A stretch of DNA of 64,000 nt from Sphingomonas limnosediminicola. GTDB lineage: Bacteria > Pseudomonadota > Alphaproteobacteria > Sphingomonadales > Sphingomonadaceae. The first letter of the stretch is position 1; every line of letters starts with the position of its first letter. The notes under the pieces are model-generated. The model searched no databases. It was not told the origin of the DNA and saw nothing but the letters and a program-made list of their open reading frames with translations. Where the stretch lies: contig NZ_BAABBM010000001.1 of assembly GCF_039537965.1 (NCBI RefSeq), positions 2,021,501 through 2,085,500 on the forward strand, read 5' to 3'. Below are positions 37,435-55,753 of this stretch, piece after piece. A program made the translations under genes and the position numbers.

Positions 37435-38178
37435 TCAGTTCCGTGCGTCCATGCGCAGGTGCAGATAGCGCGGTTGGAAGTCAGCCAGCACGGCCATCTT
37501 GTGCCAGTCGTTGATCGTGATCCGCCGTCTGGTTCGCGAAATATAGCCGAGCTCCTCGAGCTTCATCAGCGTGCGGTTCACGTGGACCGACGTCAGCGCG
37601 ACGGCGTCCGCGAGCTGCTCCTGCGTGATCGGCAGCTCATATTCCGTCTGTTTGCCAAGCTCCGACGCTTCCATGCGCATGGCGAATTCGCACAATAGAT
37701 GGCCGACGCGGACGATGGCGTTGCGGCGGCCGATGTTGAGGATCCATTCGCGGAAGATCGAGCCTTCGACCAGGGTTTCGTACCACATCCCCATTCCGAC
37801 GGCCGGACGGCTGAACGCAATGTCCCGCACCGCTTCGACCGGGATCAGCGCAATGTGGCCGGCGCTCAGCATCTGCACGTTGTGATCGGCTACTCCGAGC
37901 AGCGAGTTCTGGAGGTCGACGATGTCGCCCTTCATGTGGATCGACATGATCTGCCGGCCGCCGTTGCCGGCAACCTTGTAGCGATAGGCAAACCCCGAAA
38001 GGATGAGGCACGCATTCTGCGGCCGGTCTCCGTCCCACACGACATGCTCGCCGGCTTTGAGTTGTCGGCGCGTGAACGGCAGCGCCCGGACGGCATTGCA
38101 GTCGTCGTCGCTCAGCGGATTCCACTGGTCGAGCTTGCGGACGAGTAAGTTCAGAGGGTGGGTTCTGCTGTCTGACAT
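37435..38178 (-). CDS. Crp/Fnr-family transcriptional regulator
   Basis: 247 residues. An N-terminal cyclic-nucleotide-like sensor domain (about 25-150, GRQIMSIHMKGDIVDLQNSL) and a C-terminal winged helix with PITQEQLADAVALTSVHVNRTLMKLEELGYISRTRRR. No FNR cysteines. Its 5' leader shares CTGAGAGAC and GCTCCCGC with the leaders of two small-gene units at 52.5 and 55.5 kb, suggesting common control. Confidence 0.87.
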   Translation of the reverse strand: MSDSRTHPLNLLVRKLDQWNPLSDDDCNAVRALPFTRRQLKAGEHVVWDGDRPQNACLILSGFAYRYKVAGNGGRQIMSIHMKGDIVDLQNSLLGVADHNVQMLSAGHIALIPVEAVRDIAFSRPAVGMGMWYETLVEGSIFREWILNIGRRNAIVRVGHLLCEFAMRMEASELGKQTEYELPITQEQLADAVALTSVHVNRTLMKLEELGYISRTRRRITINDWHKMAVLADFQPRYLHLRMDARN

Positions 38179-38219
38179 CGTGCGTTCGCTAGGCGGGAGC
38201 GCTTACGCTTGTCTCTCAG
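38179..38219 (-). promoter_or_regulatory. Leader element, partial copy (Crp-type gene)
   Basis: Read on the minus strand, GGCTGAGAGAC (38220-38211) is followed by GCGCTCCCGC (38203-38194) and, 15 bases later, the ATG at 38178. It matches the leaders at 52495-52539 and 55502-55544 in these blocks. Unlike them it lacks the downstream GGGAG arm, so the hairpin is not formed and only the upstream half of the element is kept. Confidence 0.5.
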
Positions 38220-38382
38220 CCACCAGTTAGCCGCATTAGACGCCTGGTGATGGTTCCTCTTTATACCTGTTTAGACGGCAAGGCTAATCTGCGTTGCGAG
38301 TGTGTCGGGACGTGGAATTCAGACTTGGCCTATCGCTGAGCACGCGCTTCGGCGGCATGGAAAGCGGACAAAGCGCGCCAGT

Positions 38383-39069: not shown

Positions 39070-39260
39070 GGCAGCGGACCTCCTCCGCAAGAGCGTGGCA
39101 CGACGTCATACAAGAAGCGTGCAACCTCAAGCGGGAGCACTGGAATGTCTCTCTGTCACGGGATGCTTGAGGAAGATCAGGTGATATGAGTACATTACCA
39201 CGTCCTTGTCGCTCAGGCTATCTCGCTTCGGGTCGAAGGCAGGAGCGGCGCTGATTGCAT

Positions 39261-50493: not shown

Positions 50494-52416
50494 ATGTCTA
50501 AGCTCGCTGGCCTGCTCGTCCTCTCGTCTTCCATGATGGCGCTCAGCGCCTGCGCAACCGCTCCGGCCGCGCCGCCGCCACCGCCGGTTGTCGCCGAAGC
50601 GCCGGCACCGGCAGCGCCCGTCGCCAGCGCGCATGACCGGCTATTCAAGGTTTTCAAGGACAGCGACGAAGCCAGCCTGAAGCGCAATCCGCTCAACGCG
50701 ATCTTCCGCGGCGACATGCGCTATGCCGAGCATCTCGGCGACAACATCTCCGACGCTTATTATGCCGGCGAGCGGGCGGCGGCCGAGCACGACCTTGCGG
50801 CGCTTCACGCGATCCCGCGCGACCAGCTGAACGAAACCGACCAGCTCGCCTACGATACGTTCGAGTTTACGACCAAGGATACGCTGCGGGGACTTCAGCC
50901 GGATCTGCTCCAGCTGACCGAGGTGCGGCCGATGAATCACTTCTTCGGCTTCCACACTTTCTACCCGACCTTCGCGAGCGGGAAGGGCGCGGCGCCGTTC
51001 AAGACGATCGAGGATTACGACAACAACCTGAAGCGCCACCACGAGTTCGTGACCTATCTCGACCGCGCGATCGGGCGCTTCCGCCAGGGCGAGCAGTCGG
51101 GCGTCGTCGACACCAAACTGACCGTCCGCAACATGATTGAGCAGCTCGACAACCAGCTCAAGATGAAGCCGGAAGACTCACCTTATTTCGGGCCGGCAAA
51201 GCAATTCCCGGCAAGCTTCAGCGATGCCGACAAGGCGCGCCTGACGCAGGAATATCGCGCTTCGATCACTGACGAAATCTACCCCGCGCTCACGCGGCTC
51301 CGCGATTTCCTGAAGAACGAATATCTGCCCAGGGCGCGCGACGGCGCCGGCCTCATGTACATGAAGGGCGGCCCGGAGCTTTACCGCTACCTCATCCAGT
51401 CGACGACGACTGAAGCGCTCGATCCGGAAGCTGTGCACCAGCTCGGCCTCAGCGAAGTCGCGCGGATTACCAAGGGTTTCGAGAAGATCCGGCAGGAAGT
51501 TGGCTTCAAGGGCAATCTGCAGCAGTTCTTCGATTACATGCGCACGGCGAAGCAGTTCCAGCCGAAGACGCGCGACGAGCTTCGCGACGGTTTCCGCACG
51601 GTGCAGACGAAGGTCGAGGCGCGGGTGCCTGAATTTTTCTCGCGCACGCCCAAGGCGCCGCTCGAGATCCGCGCCTACGAGCCGTTCCGCGAGAAGTTCG
51701 AGGCCGGCGGCTCGTATGAGCCGGGCACGCCCGACGCCAAGCGCCCGGGCACCTTCTACTACAACGCTTACGACCTGCCCTCGCGCAGTAAATGGGAAGA
51801 GACGACGCTCTTCATGCACGAGGGCGAGCCGGGCCATCACTTCCAGATCAGCCTGGCGCAGGAGAATGAGGCGCTGCCGAGCTTCATGCGCTTCGGCGGC
51901 AACACGGCCTATGTCGAGGGCTGGGCGCTCTACGCGGAGTCGCTCGGCTACCCGATGGGAATGTACACGGACCCGTACCAAAGGTTCGGCAACCTCAACG
52001 ACGAGATGCTGCGCGCCATGAGGCTGGTCGTCGACACCGGAATCCACGCCAAGGGTTGGACGCGCGAGCAGGCGATCGCCTACATGCTCGGCCACTCCGG
52101 CATGTCGAAGACCGACGCCACCGCCGAGGTCGAACGCTACATCGCCATTCCGAGCCAGGCGCTTGCGTACAAGATCGGTCAGCTGACCATCCTGCGCCTG
52201 CGCGACAAGGCGCAGGCGGCGCTGGGCCCCAAGTTCGACATCCGGGAATTCCATGCGCAGGTGCTCGACACGGGCGCGCTGCCTCTGCCGATCCTCGAAC
52301 AGAAGATCGACCGCTGGATCGCTGCTCGCCAGAACGGCGGTCCGGCCCCGCAGCCGCAGCCGGTCCTGACGCCGACGTCACAGCCGACGCCGACGGGCAA
52401 AGGCGAACGGGGGTAA
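50494..52416 (+). CDS. DUF885 lipoprotein (putative metallopeptidase)
   Basis: 640 residues from ATG 50494; an upstream in-frame GTG (50476) is less likely. Lipoprotein signal MSKLAGLLVLSSSMMALSAC with lipobox LSAC, then a Pro/Ala linker. DUF885 is a predicted zinc peptidase family; its HEGEPGHHFQ motif (near residue 445) contains the HExxxH-like zinc site, followed by EGWALYAESLG. It probably acts on oligopeptides at the periplasmic face of the outer membrane. Transcribed alone. Confidence 0.9.
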   Translation: MSKLAGLLVLSSSMMALSACATAPAAPPPPPVVAEAPAPAAPVASAHDRLFKVFKDSDEASLKRNPLNAIFRGDMRYAEHLGDNISDAYYAGERAAAEHDLAALHAIPRDQLNETDQLAYDTFEFTTKDTLRGLQPDLLQLTEVRPMNHFFGFHTFYPTFASGKGAAPFKTIEDYDNNLKRHHEFVTYLDRAIGRFRQGEQSGVVDTKLTVRNMIEQLDNQLKMKPEDSPYFGPAKQFPASFSDADKARLTQEYRASITDEIYPALTRLRDFLKNEYLPRARDGAGLMYMKGGPELYRYLIQSTTTEALDPEAVHQLGLSEVARITKGFEKIRQEVGFKGNLQQFFDYMRTAKQFQPKTRDELRDGFRTVQTKVEARVPEFFSRTPKAPLEIRAYEPFREKFEAGGSYEPGTPDAKRPGTFYYNAYDLPSRSKWEETTLFMHEGEPGHHFQISLAQENEALPSFMRFGGNTAYVEGWALYAESLGYPMGMYTDPYQRFGNLNDEMLRAMRLVVDTGIHAKGWTREQAIAYMLGHSGMSKTDATAEVERYIAIPSQALAYKIGQLTILRLRDKAQAALGPKFDIREFHAQVLDTGALPLPILEQKIDRWIAARQNGGPAPQPQPVLTPTSQPTPTGKGERG

Positions 52417-52494
52417 GCTCACGGACGCTGGTAATCCCGCAGGATGTCACCATATTGAGAGCATCGCGGGCACGATGCTTGTAGGCGCCAGCGG

Positions 52495-52539
52495 CTGAGA
52501 GACATGAAGTGCTCCCGCTTACGGATTGGGAGCACTTTC
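52495..52539 (+). promoter_or_regulatory. SD-sequestering leader hairpin (copy A)
   Basis: CTGAGAGAC (52495-52503) is followed by a hairpin with perfect 10 bp arms, AAGTGCTCCC (52507-52516) and GGGAGCACTT (52528-52537). The GGGAG of the right arm is the ribosome-binding site of the ATG at 52540, so folding would hide it. TTGAGA, 17 bases and CTTGTA upstream could be the promoter. The same arrangement occurs at 55502-55544. Confidence 0.6.
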
Positions 52540-52818
52540 ATGGACATCGACCAGCCCACGCCAAGTCCACGACGTCCCCGAAGCATGGCATTTTCCAGGC
52601 GGAGCAAGACTCCGCTGCCGACTCCCGAGCAATCGCGGCGGCAGGCCGACGTCGTTCAATCGGCTTGGCATCACTTCGGCGAGCCCGGTCCGGTCATCGC
52701 TTTCCTCAACAGCCGTCACGAAGGCCTCGAGGGACAACCGCTCCGTCTCGCGATCGAGAGCGACCTGGGCCTGGAGCGCGTCCAGGCTTGGCTCCAGCAA
52801 CATTCACTGAAAGCCTGA
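52540..52818 (+). CDS. MbcA/ParS/Xre antitoxin-domain-like small protein
   Basis: 92 residues. After a polar N-terminus, the C-terminal ~45 residues (AWHHFGEPGPVIAFLNSRHE..QPLRLAIESDLGLERVQAWL) follow the DUF2384/MbcA-like domain: a helix, a loop with LN, and the final VxxWL helix. In toxin-antitoxin pairs this domain binds RES toxins. No RES gene is near, so it is an orphan regulator or adaptor. Its start is under the copy A hairpin. Confidence 0.68.
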   Translation: MDIDQPTPSPRRPRSMAFSRRSKTPLPTPEQSRRQADVVQSAWHHFGEPGPVIAFLNSRHEGLEGQPLRLAIESDLGLERVQAWLQQHSLKA

Positions 52819-52821
52819 GCA

Positions 52822-52968
52822 ATGCGAAAGAAGCGCGAACCCGAGAGCCAGCAGCAACGCAGCGACCGCCTGGAGCAGGACGCGCGGGATAAACAGCGTG
52901 ACAGGTCCGTCGAATCCGAGGCGCTGGACGCAGCGGTTCAGAAAAGTATCAGGCTGCACGGCGCCTGA
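52822..52968 (+). CDS. Very small charged protein (48 residues)
   Basis: ATG 52822, three bases after the MbcA-like stop, reads 48 residues to TGA 52968. Almost entirely Arg/Lys/Glu/Gln with a helical pattern and a C-terminal AVQKSIRLHGA. Close spacing to the previous gene argues for one transcript. No family recognised; a weak ribosome site lowers confidence. Confidence 0.5.
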   Translation: MRKKREPESQQQRSDRLEQDARDKQRDRSVESEALDAAVQKSIRLHGA

Positions 52969-52995: not shown

Positions 52996-53322
52996 ATGCA
53001 GGATCCCGGAAAGTCGAAAGGCAAGAGCTTTTCCGCGTTTCGGTCCGCGGCCGAAGAAGTCGGCAAGCGCGTGACTGACGAGGCCGAACCAGAGAAACCG
53101 GCGCGAGGAAAGGAAGGCGGGCACATGAGCTCGACCGCCGGTCGCGTCACGCACGTCCATGGCAGCGAATTGCCTTATCTTGCCATTCTCAACCACCATG
53201 ATCGCGACCCGACCGAGCACGGCTTTGCGACGATGCGGGAGGCCGAAGCCTTCATCAAACGCAACACGCCGGTGCCGGGAGGTTCGCTTTCCGATCTTTA
53301 CGATCGTCCCGCCGGAGACTGA
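52996..53322 (+). CDS. Small conserved protein of unknown function
   Basis: 108 residues with GAGGAGAG ahead of ATG 52996. The first 40 residues are low complexity (KSKGKSFSAF..EKPARGKEGG). The rest is a compact domain with LPYLAILNHHDRDPTEHGFATMREAEAFIKRNTP that looks conserved. No known motif. Third gene of the rightward unit beginning at 52540. Confidence 0.68.
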   Translation: MQDPGKSKGKSFSAFRSAAEEVGKRVTDEAEPEKPARGKEGGHMSSTAGRVTHVHGSELPYLAILNHHDRDPTEHGFATMREAEAFIKRNTPVPGGSLSDLYDRPAGD

Positions 53323-53871: not shown

Positions 53872-54057
53872 CTAGTCAGCGCCGAGACGGACGTTCAACT
53901 CGGCAAGCCGCTTTTTCAGGATTTCGACGTTACCCGGGCTCGTGGCCTGAAGCTGCCGCTCGCCATCCTCGTCGACGTGGGAAATCGTTCCAGACTCGAT
54001 CGCCTTGAGCAATTGCACCAGCCGGTCCCGCTCCTCATGCCAAGTCTCCGAGCTCAT
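53872..54057 (-). CDS. Small conserved helical protein (61 residues)
   Basis: ATG 54057 with GGAGACGATA upstream. Reads ETWHEERDRLVQLLKAIESGTISHVDEDG..PGNVEILKKRLAELNVRLG: two helices around a charged loop, with SGTISHVDEDGERQLQ as probable conserved core. The longer in-frame start at 54126 is not needed. Last gene of the leftward small-gene unit. Confidence 0.68.
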   Translation of the reverse strand: MSSETWHEERDRLVQLLKAIESGTISHVDEDGERQLQATSPGNVEILKKRLAELNVRLGAD

Positions 54058-54094
54058 TATCGTCTCCGCTGTCCGCGCCGCAGCTCGAGCGTCC

Positions 54095-54280
54095 CTACCG
54101 CCGCAAGCCGGCGAGGATCGCGTCATAGTCTGCGATGTCCTGAAGCAACATCGTGGTCGCCTCTTCCTTGGTCATGCCCTGCGTGGGCTCACAGCTTCCA
54201 TCGCGGATTGACGCGAGTTGCGCCGCCTTCTGATCGCGTTTTAGCTGCGTCTTCTCCACGCCCTTGCTGAAATACGTCAA
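54095..54280 (-). CDS. Small helical protein, TTG start (61 residues)
   Basis: TTG 54280 follows the upstream gene's stop by ten bases, and the ribosome site GAGGAGAG overlaps that stop (TGAGGAGAG), which supports the rare start. The protein is charged and helical (KTQLKRDQKAAQLASIRDG, TKEEATTMLLQDIADYDAILAGLRR). No family recognised. Reading begins MTYFSKGVEK. Confidence 0.62.
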   Translation of the reverse strand: MTYFSKGVEKTQLKRDQKAAQLASIRDGSCEPTQGMTKEEATTMLLQDIADYDAILAGLRR

Positions 54281-54290
54281 CGCGCTCTCC

Positions 54291-54464
54291 TCAGGCGTGG
54301 TCGATCAAAATGGTTTTCTGGAGAGGCGGCGCGTCCGGATAGAAATCCCAGAACATCGCCATGGCTTCAGCCACGACGCGGACGACATCTTGCTCGGCGT
54401 CGATTTCGGCGAGATGCTCAACCTGGCGCCAATCGGGGCCACGCACCACGATCTTGACGTTCAC
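54291..54464 (-). CDS. Small protein, GTG start (57 residues)
   Basis: GTG 54464 has GGAG five bases upstream (GGAGATCGCGTG). It encodes MNVKIVVRGPDWRQVEHLAEIDAE.. then VVAEAMAMFWDFYPDAPPLQK and ends IDHA. It looks like a compact domain with one strand and two helices. No family recognised. Part of the leftward unit. Confidence 0.58.
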   Translation of the reverse strand: MNVKIVVRGPDWRQVEHLAEIDAEQDVVRVVAEAMAMFWDFYPDAPPLQKTILIDHA

Positions 54465-54517
54465 GCGATCTCCAATGCCTCACGCTTAATCCGGACGAAG
54501 CTCACGGCGCAGAAGGG

Positions 54518-54724
54518 TCAGGCCGCGACGGCATGAGCAAGTTCCGCGTTGAGCTCGGCGACGAGGTCCGTGACCGCCTCGCCATGCATCGAGACACGAC
54601 CCGCGTGCTCGGCGATCTGCTGCCAATGCTTGAGAGTGTCGCGATGCACGCGTTGACCGCGCAAGCGGCGTGAGCTGGCGATTGCCGCAAGCAGATTGGA
54701 TCGCACGCTGCCTTCAATCTTCAT
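54518..54724 (-). CDS. Small conserved protein (68 residues)
   Basis: ATG 54724 preceded by GTGAGGAACGCTC (GAGGA site). The sequence MKIEGSVRSNLLAAIASSRRLRGQ.. followed by RDTLKHWQQIAEHAGR and a C-terminal LVAELNAELAHAVAA is amphipathic and helical. It lies 51 bp after the previous gene. Function unknown. Confidence 0.65.
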   Translation of the reverse strand: MKIEGSVRSNLLAAIASSRRLRGQRVHRDTLKHWQQIAEHAGRVSMHGEAVTDLVAELNAELAHAVAA

Positions 54725-54775
54725 GAGCGTTCCTCACAACGGGCTTGCGCGTCGGCGCAGCGGAATTCTTGGCGA

Positions 54776-55003
54776 TCACCAGATCGGCCCTTTCGGACGA
54801 TGCCTCTCACGCACGACCTCGCCGCTGATGATCTTGGACTTGAGCAATTGCCGGATGCGGTCAGCACCACTGCTGCTGCTGCAGACGAGCCGGACGCCGC
54901 CGCTCGAAAGCCGCTCGATCGTGGAAACGTTGATCTTTTCCTTCAGGCACCGAGCGACGACCTCGTCCTGCTTCATCGACAGGTGGATGGACCGGCCCGT
55001 CAT
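54776..55003 (-). CDS. Small conserved protein (75 residues)
   Basis: ATG 55003 overlaps the previous stop (ATGA), so the start is well supported. A basic beginning (MTGRSIHLSMKQDEVVARCLKEK) and a middle INVSTIERLSSGGVRLVCSSSSGADRIRQLL give an alternating strand-helix pattern like small ferredoxin-fold domains. It has two cysteines. No family assigned. Confidence 0.65.
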   Translation of the reverse strand: MTGRSIHLSMKQDEVVARCLKEKINVSTIERLSSGGVRLVCSSSSGADRIRQLLKSKIISGEVVRERHRPKGPIW

Positions 55004-55149
55004 TTCGCGTTCCGCCTGGCTGCCGCGAGCGCATCCCGCGCGTTCGAATAGCGATAACCTCCCCACAGGAAGACTTCGGCGGGGACACGGACGATCTCGT
55101 AGCGATCGAGCTCCGCCTGATCGATTTCGTTAGAAGCGCCGGCCGTCAT
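55000..55149 (-). CDS. Very small protein (49 residues)
   Basis: ATG 55149 overlaps the upstream stop by four bases (ATGA), and its own stop overlaps the next start by four. The product includes ELDRYEIVRVPAEVFLWGGYRYSNARDALAAARRN, probably a short strand followed by a helix. The double overlap is the main evidence that it is real. Confidence 0.6.
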   Translation of the reverse strand: MTAGASNEIDQAELDRYEIVRVPAEVFLWGGYRYSNARDALAAARRNAK

Positions 55150-55340
55150 TTTTGCTCTCCAAGGTTCCAGCGCCTCTGGCTCGATGGATCGATGCGGCGT
55201 GCGTCGTGATCGAACTGATCCGCCGCAGCCTTCAGGGCGATCGAGCCGCCATCGGTGCGCGCCCGTCGGGCCAGTCTTCGGAAGGAGGAAGCCTGCTCGC
55301 GAAGCTCGTTCGCAGTTTCATTGCGCGTCGGCGATTCCAT
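55146..55340 (-). CDS. Small helical protein (64 residues)
   Basis: ATG 55340 shares one base with the upstream stop (TGATG); longer in-frame starts are therefore unnecessary. Charged helices: NETANELREQASSFRRLARRA and GSIALKAAADQFDHDARRIDP. The pattern REQAxxFRRLAxxAxT..L..xAxxFDxxA recurs in small alphaproteobacterial proteins of unknown role. Confidence 0.66.
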   Translation of the reverse strand: MESPTRNETANELREQASSFRRLARRARTDGGSIALKAAADQFDHDARRIDPSSQRRWNLGEQK

Positions 55341-55501
55341 CACGCGGCGCCTGCCAAGCCAGCCGTCAGGCGGCGCTGGGAAATTCGCAGGGCATAGCCA
55401 TCGGCCAGGCCGCGGTGAGCGCGGCGCGATTGGTCGCACTTGGCGTGGTCCGCCATGAACAACGAAATCTGATGACGATGGTAGAGGTAATTGAGATCCA
55501 T
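55340..55501 (-). CDS. First small protein of leftward unit (53 residues)
   Basis: ATG 55501 is preceded by GGGAGCGTAT, part of the copy B hairpin. It encodes MDLNYLYHRHQISLFMADHA then CDQSRRAHRGLADGYALRI, with an opening that looks conserved, and ends at TGA 55340 inside the next start. The product is basic and helical. Family not named. Confidence 0.64.
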   Translation of the reverse strand: MDLNYLYHRHQISLFMADHAKCDQSRRAHRGLADGYALRISQRRLTAGLAGAA

Positions 55502-55544
55502 ATACGCTCCCGTCTCGTAAGCGGGAGCACAGTCGGTCTCTCAG
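55502..55544 (-). promoter_or_regulatory. SD-sequestering leader hairpin (copy B)
   Basis: On the minus strand CTGAGAGAC (55544-55536) is followed by GTGCTCCCGCTTACG, then GGGAGC and ATG 55501. Hairpin arms are GCTCCCG (55528-55522) and CGGGAGC (55512-55506). The Shine-Dalgarno GGGAG lies in the second arm. It shares 15 identical bases with copy A, and TTGTAGGC upstream is also shared. Confidence 0.6.
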
Positions 55545-55753
55545 TCGCGCAGGCCTACAACGGTAACCATCCGAGCGATGCGCTTGTATACCACACCAGG
55601 CCCTGATTCCCTACGACATTCTTTATTTGCAAGGGCTTTTCACGTTTCTTCCGAGCCGTTGAATCGTCTGCTCACAACTATTGGCGATCTGTCTCACCGC
55701 CATGATTGCGTGCTGAATATCGAACCGGAGCGACGATTAATATGCGCGAGGAA

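Follow-up and report, generated by a model that had tools for sequence, protein, structure and literature searches.

The window analysed here is the whole 64,000-nt stretch of Sphingomonas limnosediminicola DNA, and a pattern search showed that CTGAGAGACN5GTGCTCCCGC occurs in it exactly at 52495-52518 (+) and 55521-55544 (-). Both sites are followed by GGGAG and then by a start codon, ATG 52540 (+) and ATG 55501 (-), respectively, and 0 of 100 shuffles of the window held two matches to the pattern at up to 3 mismatches. The sites belong to a leader element of ~75 nt, the first base of which is the predicted transcription start. In the proposed structure, a 5'-terminal hairpin (P1) is followed by a linker and by an anti-Shine-Dalgarno strand, GCTCCC; the loop of P1 would pair just behind that strand (PK), and the strand itself would pair either with the linker (P2) or with the Shine-Dalgarno (P3). 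Four copies were found in the window, and they are given below with their genes and with model scores that, for copies 1 to 3, are high partly by construction, since the model was trained on them, the score of copy 4 being independent.

52428-52433 and 52451-52456, plus strand: predicted promoter of copy 1, a weak -35 element (CTGGTA) and a -10-like CATATT, placed by eye at the TTG/TAT positions of the aligned copies
52463-52539, plus strand: copy 1 of the leader, running from A 52463, where transcription is predicted to start, up to the start codon; 69.7 bits with the model trained on it (as L004)
52464-52494, plus strand: predicted P1 hairpin of copy 1, from covariation, with arms TCGCGGGC (52464-52471) and GCCAGCGG (52487-52494)
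52481-52486, plus strand: predicted 5' arm of PK, GTAGGC, in the P1 loop of copy 1, from covariation; partner GCTTAC at 52517-52522
52495-52503, plus strand: linker of copy 1, CTGAGAGAC, an exact match and the predicted 5' strand of P2 (covariation)
52511-52516, plus strand: anti-Shine-Dalgarno strand of copy 1, GCTCCC, common to P2 and P3
52528-52536, plus strand: Shine-Dalgarno GGGAG and predicted 3' arm of P3 in copy 1, GGGAGCACT, complementary to AGTGCTCCC at 52508-52516
52540-52818, plus strand: small gene of 92 aa behind copy 1
55503-55589, minus strand: copy 2, a model match of 68.4 bits (L005 in the training set); predicted start A 55579, P1 55578-55545, PK 55558-55553 with 55522-55517, linker 55544-55536, GCTCCC 55528-55523, Shine-Dalgarno GGGAG 55511-55507
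55340-55501, minus strand: small gene of 53 aa (MDLNYLYHR...), first of the small-ORF run behind copy 2
55146-55340, minus strand: small ORF of 64 aa (MESPTRNE...); relatives L001 and L036 have a leader of their own
55000-55149, minus strand: small ORF of 49 aa; relatives L029, L039, L011, and L025 have a leader of their own
54776-55003, minus strand: small ORF of 75 aa (MTGRSIHL...); relatives L136, L076, L164, L145, and L114 have a leader of their own
38175-38261, minus strand: copy 3, 45.3 bits (L003 in the training set); linker 38219-38211, GCTCCC 38200-38195
37435-38178, minus strand: Crp-type regulator gene of 247 aa behind copy 3, its family taken from relatives
39113-39195, minus strand: copy 4, with the variant CAGAGAGAC; 32.9 bits, outside the training set of model R1

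A preliminary description of this DNA had reported two full leaders, before ATG 52540 and ATG 55501, and both are exact. It had also reported a partial version at 38179-38219, which does precede the Crp-type gene but is in fact a full core copy on the minus strand, in the order CTGAGAGAC, 10 bases, GCTCCCGC, 14 bases, and ATG 38178. P1 and a short PK are present in this copy and no GGAG lies before the start; the leader stands before both the small genes and the regulator, but the regulator's own copy does not show the hiding stem. The fourth copy, like P1, PK, and P2, lies beyond that description, in which only the hiding stem P3 was noted. Copy 4 has a weak P1, a PK of TCAAGC/GCTTGA, and no Shine-Dalgarno directly behind it; it shares its strand with copy 3, from which it is separated by roughly 900 bases in the upstream direction, and it may be in decay or may act on a short upstream reading frame. 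Thus, two of the four window copies (3 and 4) show no clear Shine-Dalgarno and are at odds with P3.

Among copies anchored at P1, the upstream DNA has TTG at about -36 and TAT at about -12, and an A stands just before P1 in 56/57, 72/72, and 102/103 copies of three sets. From this, we infer a housekeeping (sigma-70-type) promoter, with the RNA probably starting at P1. Measured from this A, the start codon is reached after 66-103 nt, mostly 69-85, in 180 leaders. A general-stress (EcfG) promoter was considered as a common feature and rejected, since the aligned promoters show TTG/TAT instead. In four copies that are probably from Bradyrhizobium (L256, L151, L186, and L257), an inverted repeat like GTTCACNTTTGAAC, perhaps a transcription-factor operator, lies ~40-55 bases upstream of P1. 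Leaders also occur as divergent pairs ~60-120 bases apart (G420:C186:19320-19557, G464:C6:188175-188414, and G529:C1:960116-960393), further pairs being G399:C7:173179-173407, G486:C1:2233779-2234020, and those at L100 and L111; one arm of the L100 pair stands before a DUF6894-like gene and the other before a Crp/Fnr gene.

The position of the element relative to genes was determined on 184 copies that were found by the model rather than by the exact motif and had enough DNA behind them. A Shine-Dalgarno, a start codon, and at least 20 open codons were in place behind 139/184 of these, compared to 1587/20000 (7.9%) random anchors, and many of the other 45/184 have a start with a poorer Shine-Dalgarno. 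A start codon is likewise present in 228/235 alignment rows, or 219 after removal of duplicates; since the start codons of this set were chosen partly by their Shine-Dalgarno, the value of 191/219 obtained from it is biased, and the 184-copy test is fairer.

When the 69 distinct copies that show the exact pattern in the genus were lined up, the arms of the hairpin directly upstream of CTGAGAGAC varied while their complementarity was kept, and the end of its loop (GTAGGC, GTAAGC, TGAGGC, TTGGC, CATGC, etc.) was able to pair with what follows GCTCCC (GCTTAC, GCCTTA, GCCAA, GCATG, etc.), a complementarity that we interpret as a pseudoknot. Alignment A1 holds 57 of these 69 copies, the other 12 being omitted because their Shine-Dalgarno was unusual or absent or their context redundant. 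In this sequence-only alignment, P1 was paired in 91.5% of cells (60.7% at its inmost pair) and PK in 82.6%, compared to 31-43% overall when the structure was slid by one to three columns. Alignments A2, A3, and A5 were made with P1 models, so that their P1 counts lean to P1; none of PK, P2, and P3 entered these models as pairs. Among 74 class-wide copies aligned with only P1 modelled, 90.2% of P1 cells and 84.3% of PK cells were paired, with double changes in 4/6 PK pairs; among 123 model-found copies, PK was 79.5% paired, with double changes in 5/6 pairs. A covariation scan of the 74-copy alignment, in which no structure was assumed, ranked six P1 and three PK pairs as the nine top column pairs of 3003, the ninth scoring 23.3, less than the highest maximum seen in 20 permutations (24.9). 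Of the 2850 column pairs in the sequence-only alignment, the top two belong to P1; PK pairs took ranks 5 and 11, and non-structural pairs lay between them. These results strongly support P1 and PK as helices of the predicted RNA.

Several bases outside the helices are also conserved, i.e., C1 (123/123), A4 (116/123), and A8 (103/123) of the linker and a G two bases before the anti-Shine-Dalgarno (149/164 copies), and these might be where a ligand or a protein touches the RNA. A riboswitch is expected to carry a conserved, structured receptor domain in the 5' leader, and the covariation of P1 and PK, the conserved unpaired bases, and the position of the element agree with such a domain.

The predicted P2 pairs the linker, CUGAGAGAC, with GCUCCC by C9-G1, G7-C2, A6-U3, G5-C4, and G3-C6, with a bulged A8 and an A4xC5 mismatch. 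Since copies chosen by the exact motif (A1, A2, and rows L149-L188 of A3) cannot test this helix, it was counted on 182 other copies found by the model. At A6-U3, the cells were AU in 169 copies, GU in 4, GC in 3, and unpaired in 3; all 3 changes of U3 to C were accompanied by A6 to G, and one change of U3 to G (L360) was uncompensated. At G5-C4 (GC 175, GU 2, AU 1, GG 1), the single change of G5 to A was accompanied by C4 to U, and at C9-G1 the cells were CG 125, UG 30, GG 9, and 4 others. Doubly changed cells that still paired numbered 4 against 0.62 expected, and 28 of 20000 shuffles of the anti-Shine-Dalgarno strand gave at least 4, relatedness being ignored. Deviating cells were still paired in 43/62 cases, only slightly above the 64% of the shuffles, of which 80/20000 reached that value. 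A few independent events of paired change thus point to P2.

In P3, the same GCUCCC would pair with the Shine-Dalgarno, GGGAGC. The anti-Shine-Dalgarno and GGAG could be read in 263 copies (from 358 alignment rows, some being the same copy), and the first base of the former was G in 257/263, where the base after GGAG was C in 141, A in 58, T in 33, and G in 25. In the remaining copies, which are spread over five genomes of four genera, the base after GGAG was the exact complement in 6/6 (A-U 3, C-G 2, U-A 1); by our own arithmetic from base frequencies, the chance of this is ~5e-6 for six independent cases and ~4e-4 if they represent four events. The three A-U cases (L208, L210, and L219) have an insertion between linker and anti-Shine-Dalgarno and a P3 of GCACUCC/GGAGU, and they may form a sub-family. 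C after GGAG was found in 109/180 leaders vs. 61/198 other genes of the same loci, and G before GGAG in 79/180 vs. 41/198; covariation was looked for in the outer P3 pairs and none was found. GGAG is absent from 29/209 leaders with a start, among them the window's copies 3 and 4. Folding gave P3 a mean probability of 0.77, with values >0.5 in 140/180 leaders, and the Shine-Dalgarno was paired with a mean probability of 0.93, compared to 0.72 when the upstream sequence was shuffled. Freeing the ribosome site would cost a median of 7.7 kcal/mol in the 180 leaders, as folded without the pseudoknot, which favours P3. P3, too, is indicated by few independent paired changes. Since P2 and P3 both covary, both appear to be kept by selection, and as they share GCUCCC, they would be the mutually exclusive helices at the ribosome site that are expected of a riboswitch, with few events behind each.

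The genes behind the leaders are mostly small. In the window, a run of ORFs of ~50-85 aa, most of which have no recognised family, extends over 53872-55501 (-) behind copy 2. The largest cluster of downstream proteins has 87 members joined by chained similarity, and the 53-aa gene at 55340 has its family there; among the smaller ones are clusters of DUF6894 proteins, Crp/Fnr regulators (8 and 5), and receiver-type proteins (4), and there are also one cold-shock-domain protein and many single small proteins of no recognised kind. A Pfam search of 45 chosen downstream proteins assigned no family to the 53-aa protein or to most of the others shown. The genes do not point to a metabolite, and no metabolic pathway is found among them. 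Relatives of ORF 52996-53322 carry their own leader elsewhere, and since the same holds for the three small ORFs behind the 53-aa gene, the set looks like a regulon.

In the window's own genome (2.85 Mb), which holds about ten copies, the pattern CTGAGAGACN{2,12}GCTCCCGC has 6 exact matches and its reversed control 0; model R2 gave 10 matches at E<=1e-4 and model R1 gave 12 at E<=0.01, the weakest of which is perhaps due to chance. A first scan found the element in 33/61 genomes of the window's genus and 0/39 others, and the limitation to one genus that this suggested was refuted by wider searches. Under stricter filters, by which weak matches were lost, the leader was present in 68/149 genomes of the window's family, in 13/289 genomes drawn evenly over the class, and in 10/150 genomes of the phylum, all ten being within the class or closer (the kinship of 120 matchless genomes is not given). 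In one distant genus (that of G557), it was found in 37/40 genomes with up to 21 matches each. Strong scores were obtained in Sphingomonas, Novosphingobium, Sphingobium, Erythrobacter, Bradyrhizobium, and Methylobacterium, as well as Microvirga, Rhodoplanes, Caulobacter, Belnapia, and Rubellimicrobium; within Alphaproteobacteria, the leader family occurs widely.

The existence of real copies outside the class was considered and rejected. A pattern scan found at least 120 loci, and among the 80 listed, scores >34 bits were reached by 69/71 loci with alphaproteobacterial titles and 1/9 with other titles. The other 8 loci from outside the class (9.7-30.7 bits) are probably chance matches to the 17 fixed bases. 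The one strong copy, L089 (54.2 bits), is the sole match in a record titled as an Armatimonadetes MAG and possibly lies on a misbinned contig. Two partial matches were seen on plasmids, of Sphingomonas and Microvirga, with no feature annotated at either.

The preliminary description knew of no named RNA family of this form, and a search of the window with Rfam 15 at family gathering scores agreed with it, giving 0 matches. At E<=5, there were three weak matches in 52400-52900, none of them on the leader strand over the leader (e.g., mir-17, 14.2 bits, on the opposite strand), and 5 matches at 11 other loci, none on a leader. Among the known translational riboswitches, SAM-II, SAM/SAH, and preQ1-II are built on an H-type pseudoknot, that of preQ1-II having an extra hairpin in the connecting loop. 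The present leader resembles them in being short, in the pairing of a loop with downstream bases, in conserved bases of the connecting loop, and in control of the Shine-Dalgarno; it differs in its conserved letters, in an anti-Shine-Dalgarno with two covarying partners, and in giving no Rfam match in the window or at the 11 loci. Guanidine-II (mini-ykkC) has two successive hairpins whose loops can touch and the second of which covers the ribosome site, but its loop letters and genes are different, the nine-base conserved linker belongs to the present leader, and there is no Rfam match. The letters CUGAGA also occur in the TPP riboswitch, but the structure differs, no Rfam match was obtained, and the six-letter likeness is due to chance. 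Another group of leader motifs known from the same class is reportedly in Rfam, whereas the present leader matches no Rfam family. Those alphaproteobacterial motifs (Corbino et al., 2005; PMC1273637) are likewise regulatory RNAs upstream of genes. No description of the leader family was found in PMC4842269 and PMC11109978 or among the other matches listed in the open-access literature, and a prior description is possible.

Considering the pairing and position of the copies, we propose, with a probability of about 0.6, that this structured 5' leader family is a two-state translational switch whose signal is most likely a small molecule. Transcription would start from a sigma-70-type promoter at the first base of the element. 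P1 would then form, its loop would pair just behind the anti-Shine-Dalgarno strand, and the linker would fold back on GCUCCC, so that P1, P2, and PK together hold this strand off the ribosome site (ON). Should P2 give way, GCUCCC would pair with GGGAGC and the ribosome site would be hidden (OFF). The choice between the two forms would fall to a ligand, most likely a small molecule bound in the core of P1, P2, and PK; we infer both this role of a ligand and the assignment of ON and OFF. Since folding without the pseudoknot strongly favours P3, the ON form is assumed to be stabilised by something. Its targets would be the uncharacterised small genes, along with genes for Crp/Fnr regulators, receiver proteins, and DUF6894 proteins.

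A riboswitch is our best guess, and its main rival is a leader controlled by a protein, in which an RNA-binding protein would recognise the conserved C, A, and G bases of the P1/P2/PK core and tip the balance of P2 and P3 throughout the regulon. The many copies per genome before unrelated regulatory and unknown genes, the conserved unpaired bases, and the lack of a metabolic pathway would all suit such a protein; however, the core is common to several distant orders, and the protein would need to be shared by them too, and we regard this explanation as possible but considerably less probable. A small RNA acting in trans might instead pair with CUGAGAGAC and/or GCUCCC and thereby release or lock the ribosome site; the linker is long and conserved, and a single RNA could serve every copy. 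However, changes in the linker are accompanied by changes in the opposite strand, which argues for pairing in cis. CTGAGAGAC occurs at 12 sites of the own genome (4 for the reversed control), 6 of them in leaders; the other 6 lie in stretches that hold open frames of at least 90 codons, and inspection by eye of this unannotated genome showed no place like that of a small RNA. We hold a small RNA to be improbable.

Still less probable is an RNA thermosensor, an option raised by the preliminary description, in which heat would melt P3 and free the ribosome site. It could accommodate the covering of the Shine-Dalgarno by P3 in the folded leaders and the cold-shock-domain gene among the targets, but P3 is short and G+C-rich with the high cost of opening given above, a thermosensor needs neither the pseudoknot nor the conserved linker, no Rfam thermosensor family (ROSE, fourU) matches, and nothing found favours it. 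A mobile or interspersed repeat, or a shared DNA operator, with no role as RNA, would explain the many copies per genome and their patchy presence but is the least probable reading and is largely contradicted already, in that a repeat should lie mostly away from start codons whereas most copies stand directly before them, in that copies begin at a fixed distance from a promoter, and in that the sequences differ yet keep a covarying pairing with many G-U pairs. What stands of the preliminary description is its regulatory 5' UTR able to hide the Shine-Dalgarno and shared by small genes and a Crp-type regulator, which is supported by the P3 pairing, by the excess of copies before starts over random anchors, and by the compensatory changes, found in P1 and PK and, in small number, in P2 and P3, with none in outer P3.

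To return to the riboswitch, we give even odds to the more specific proposal that the leader represents a new riboswitch class in Alphaproteobacteria, with up to about twenty copies per genome, sensing what is probably a signalling small molecule and switching a regulon of uncharacterised small proteins, Crp/Fnr regulators, and receiver-domain proteins by letting a single strand of six bases change between two partners. What is described here is a regulatory RNA family that is not represented in Rfam 15 and occurs in well-studied bacteria of soil and plants, and the model of it is precise to the base pair and testable with simple mutants. Many nameless genes for small proteins are brought into one apparent regulon, and the signal, if it is a small molecule, could be one for which no RNA sensor is known so far.
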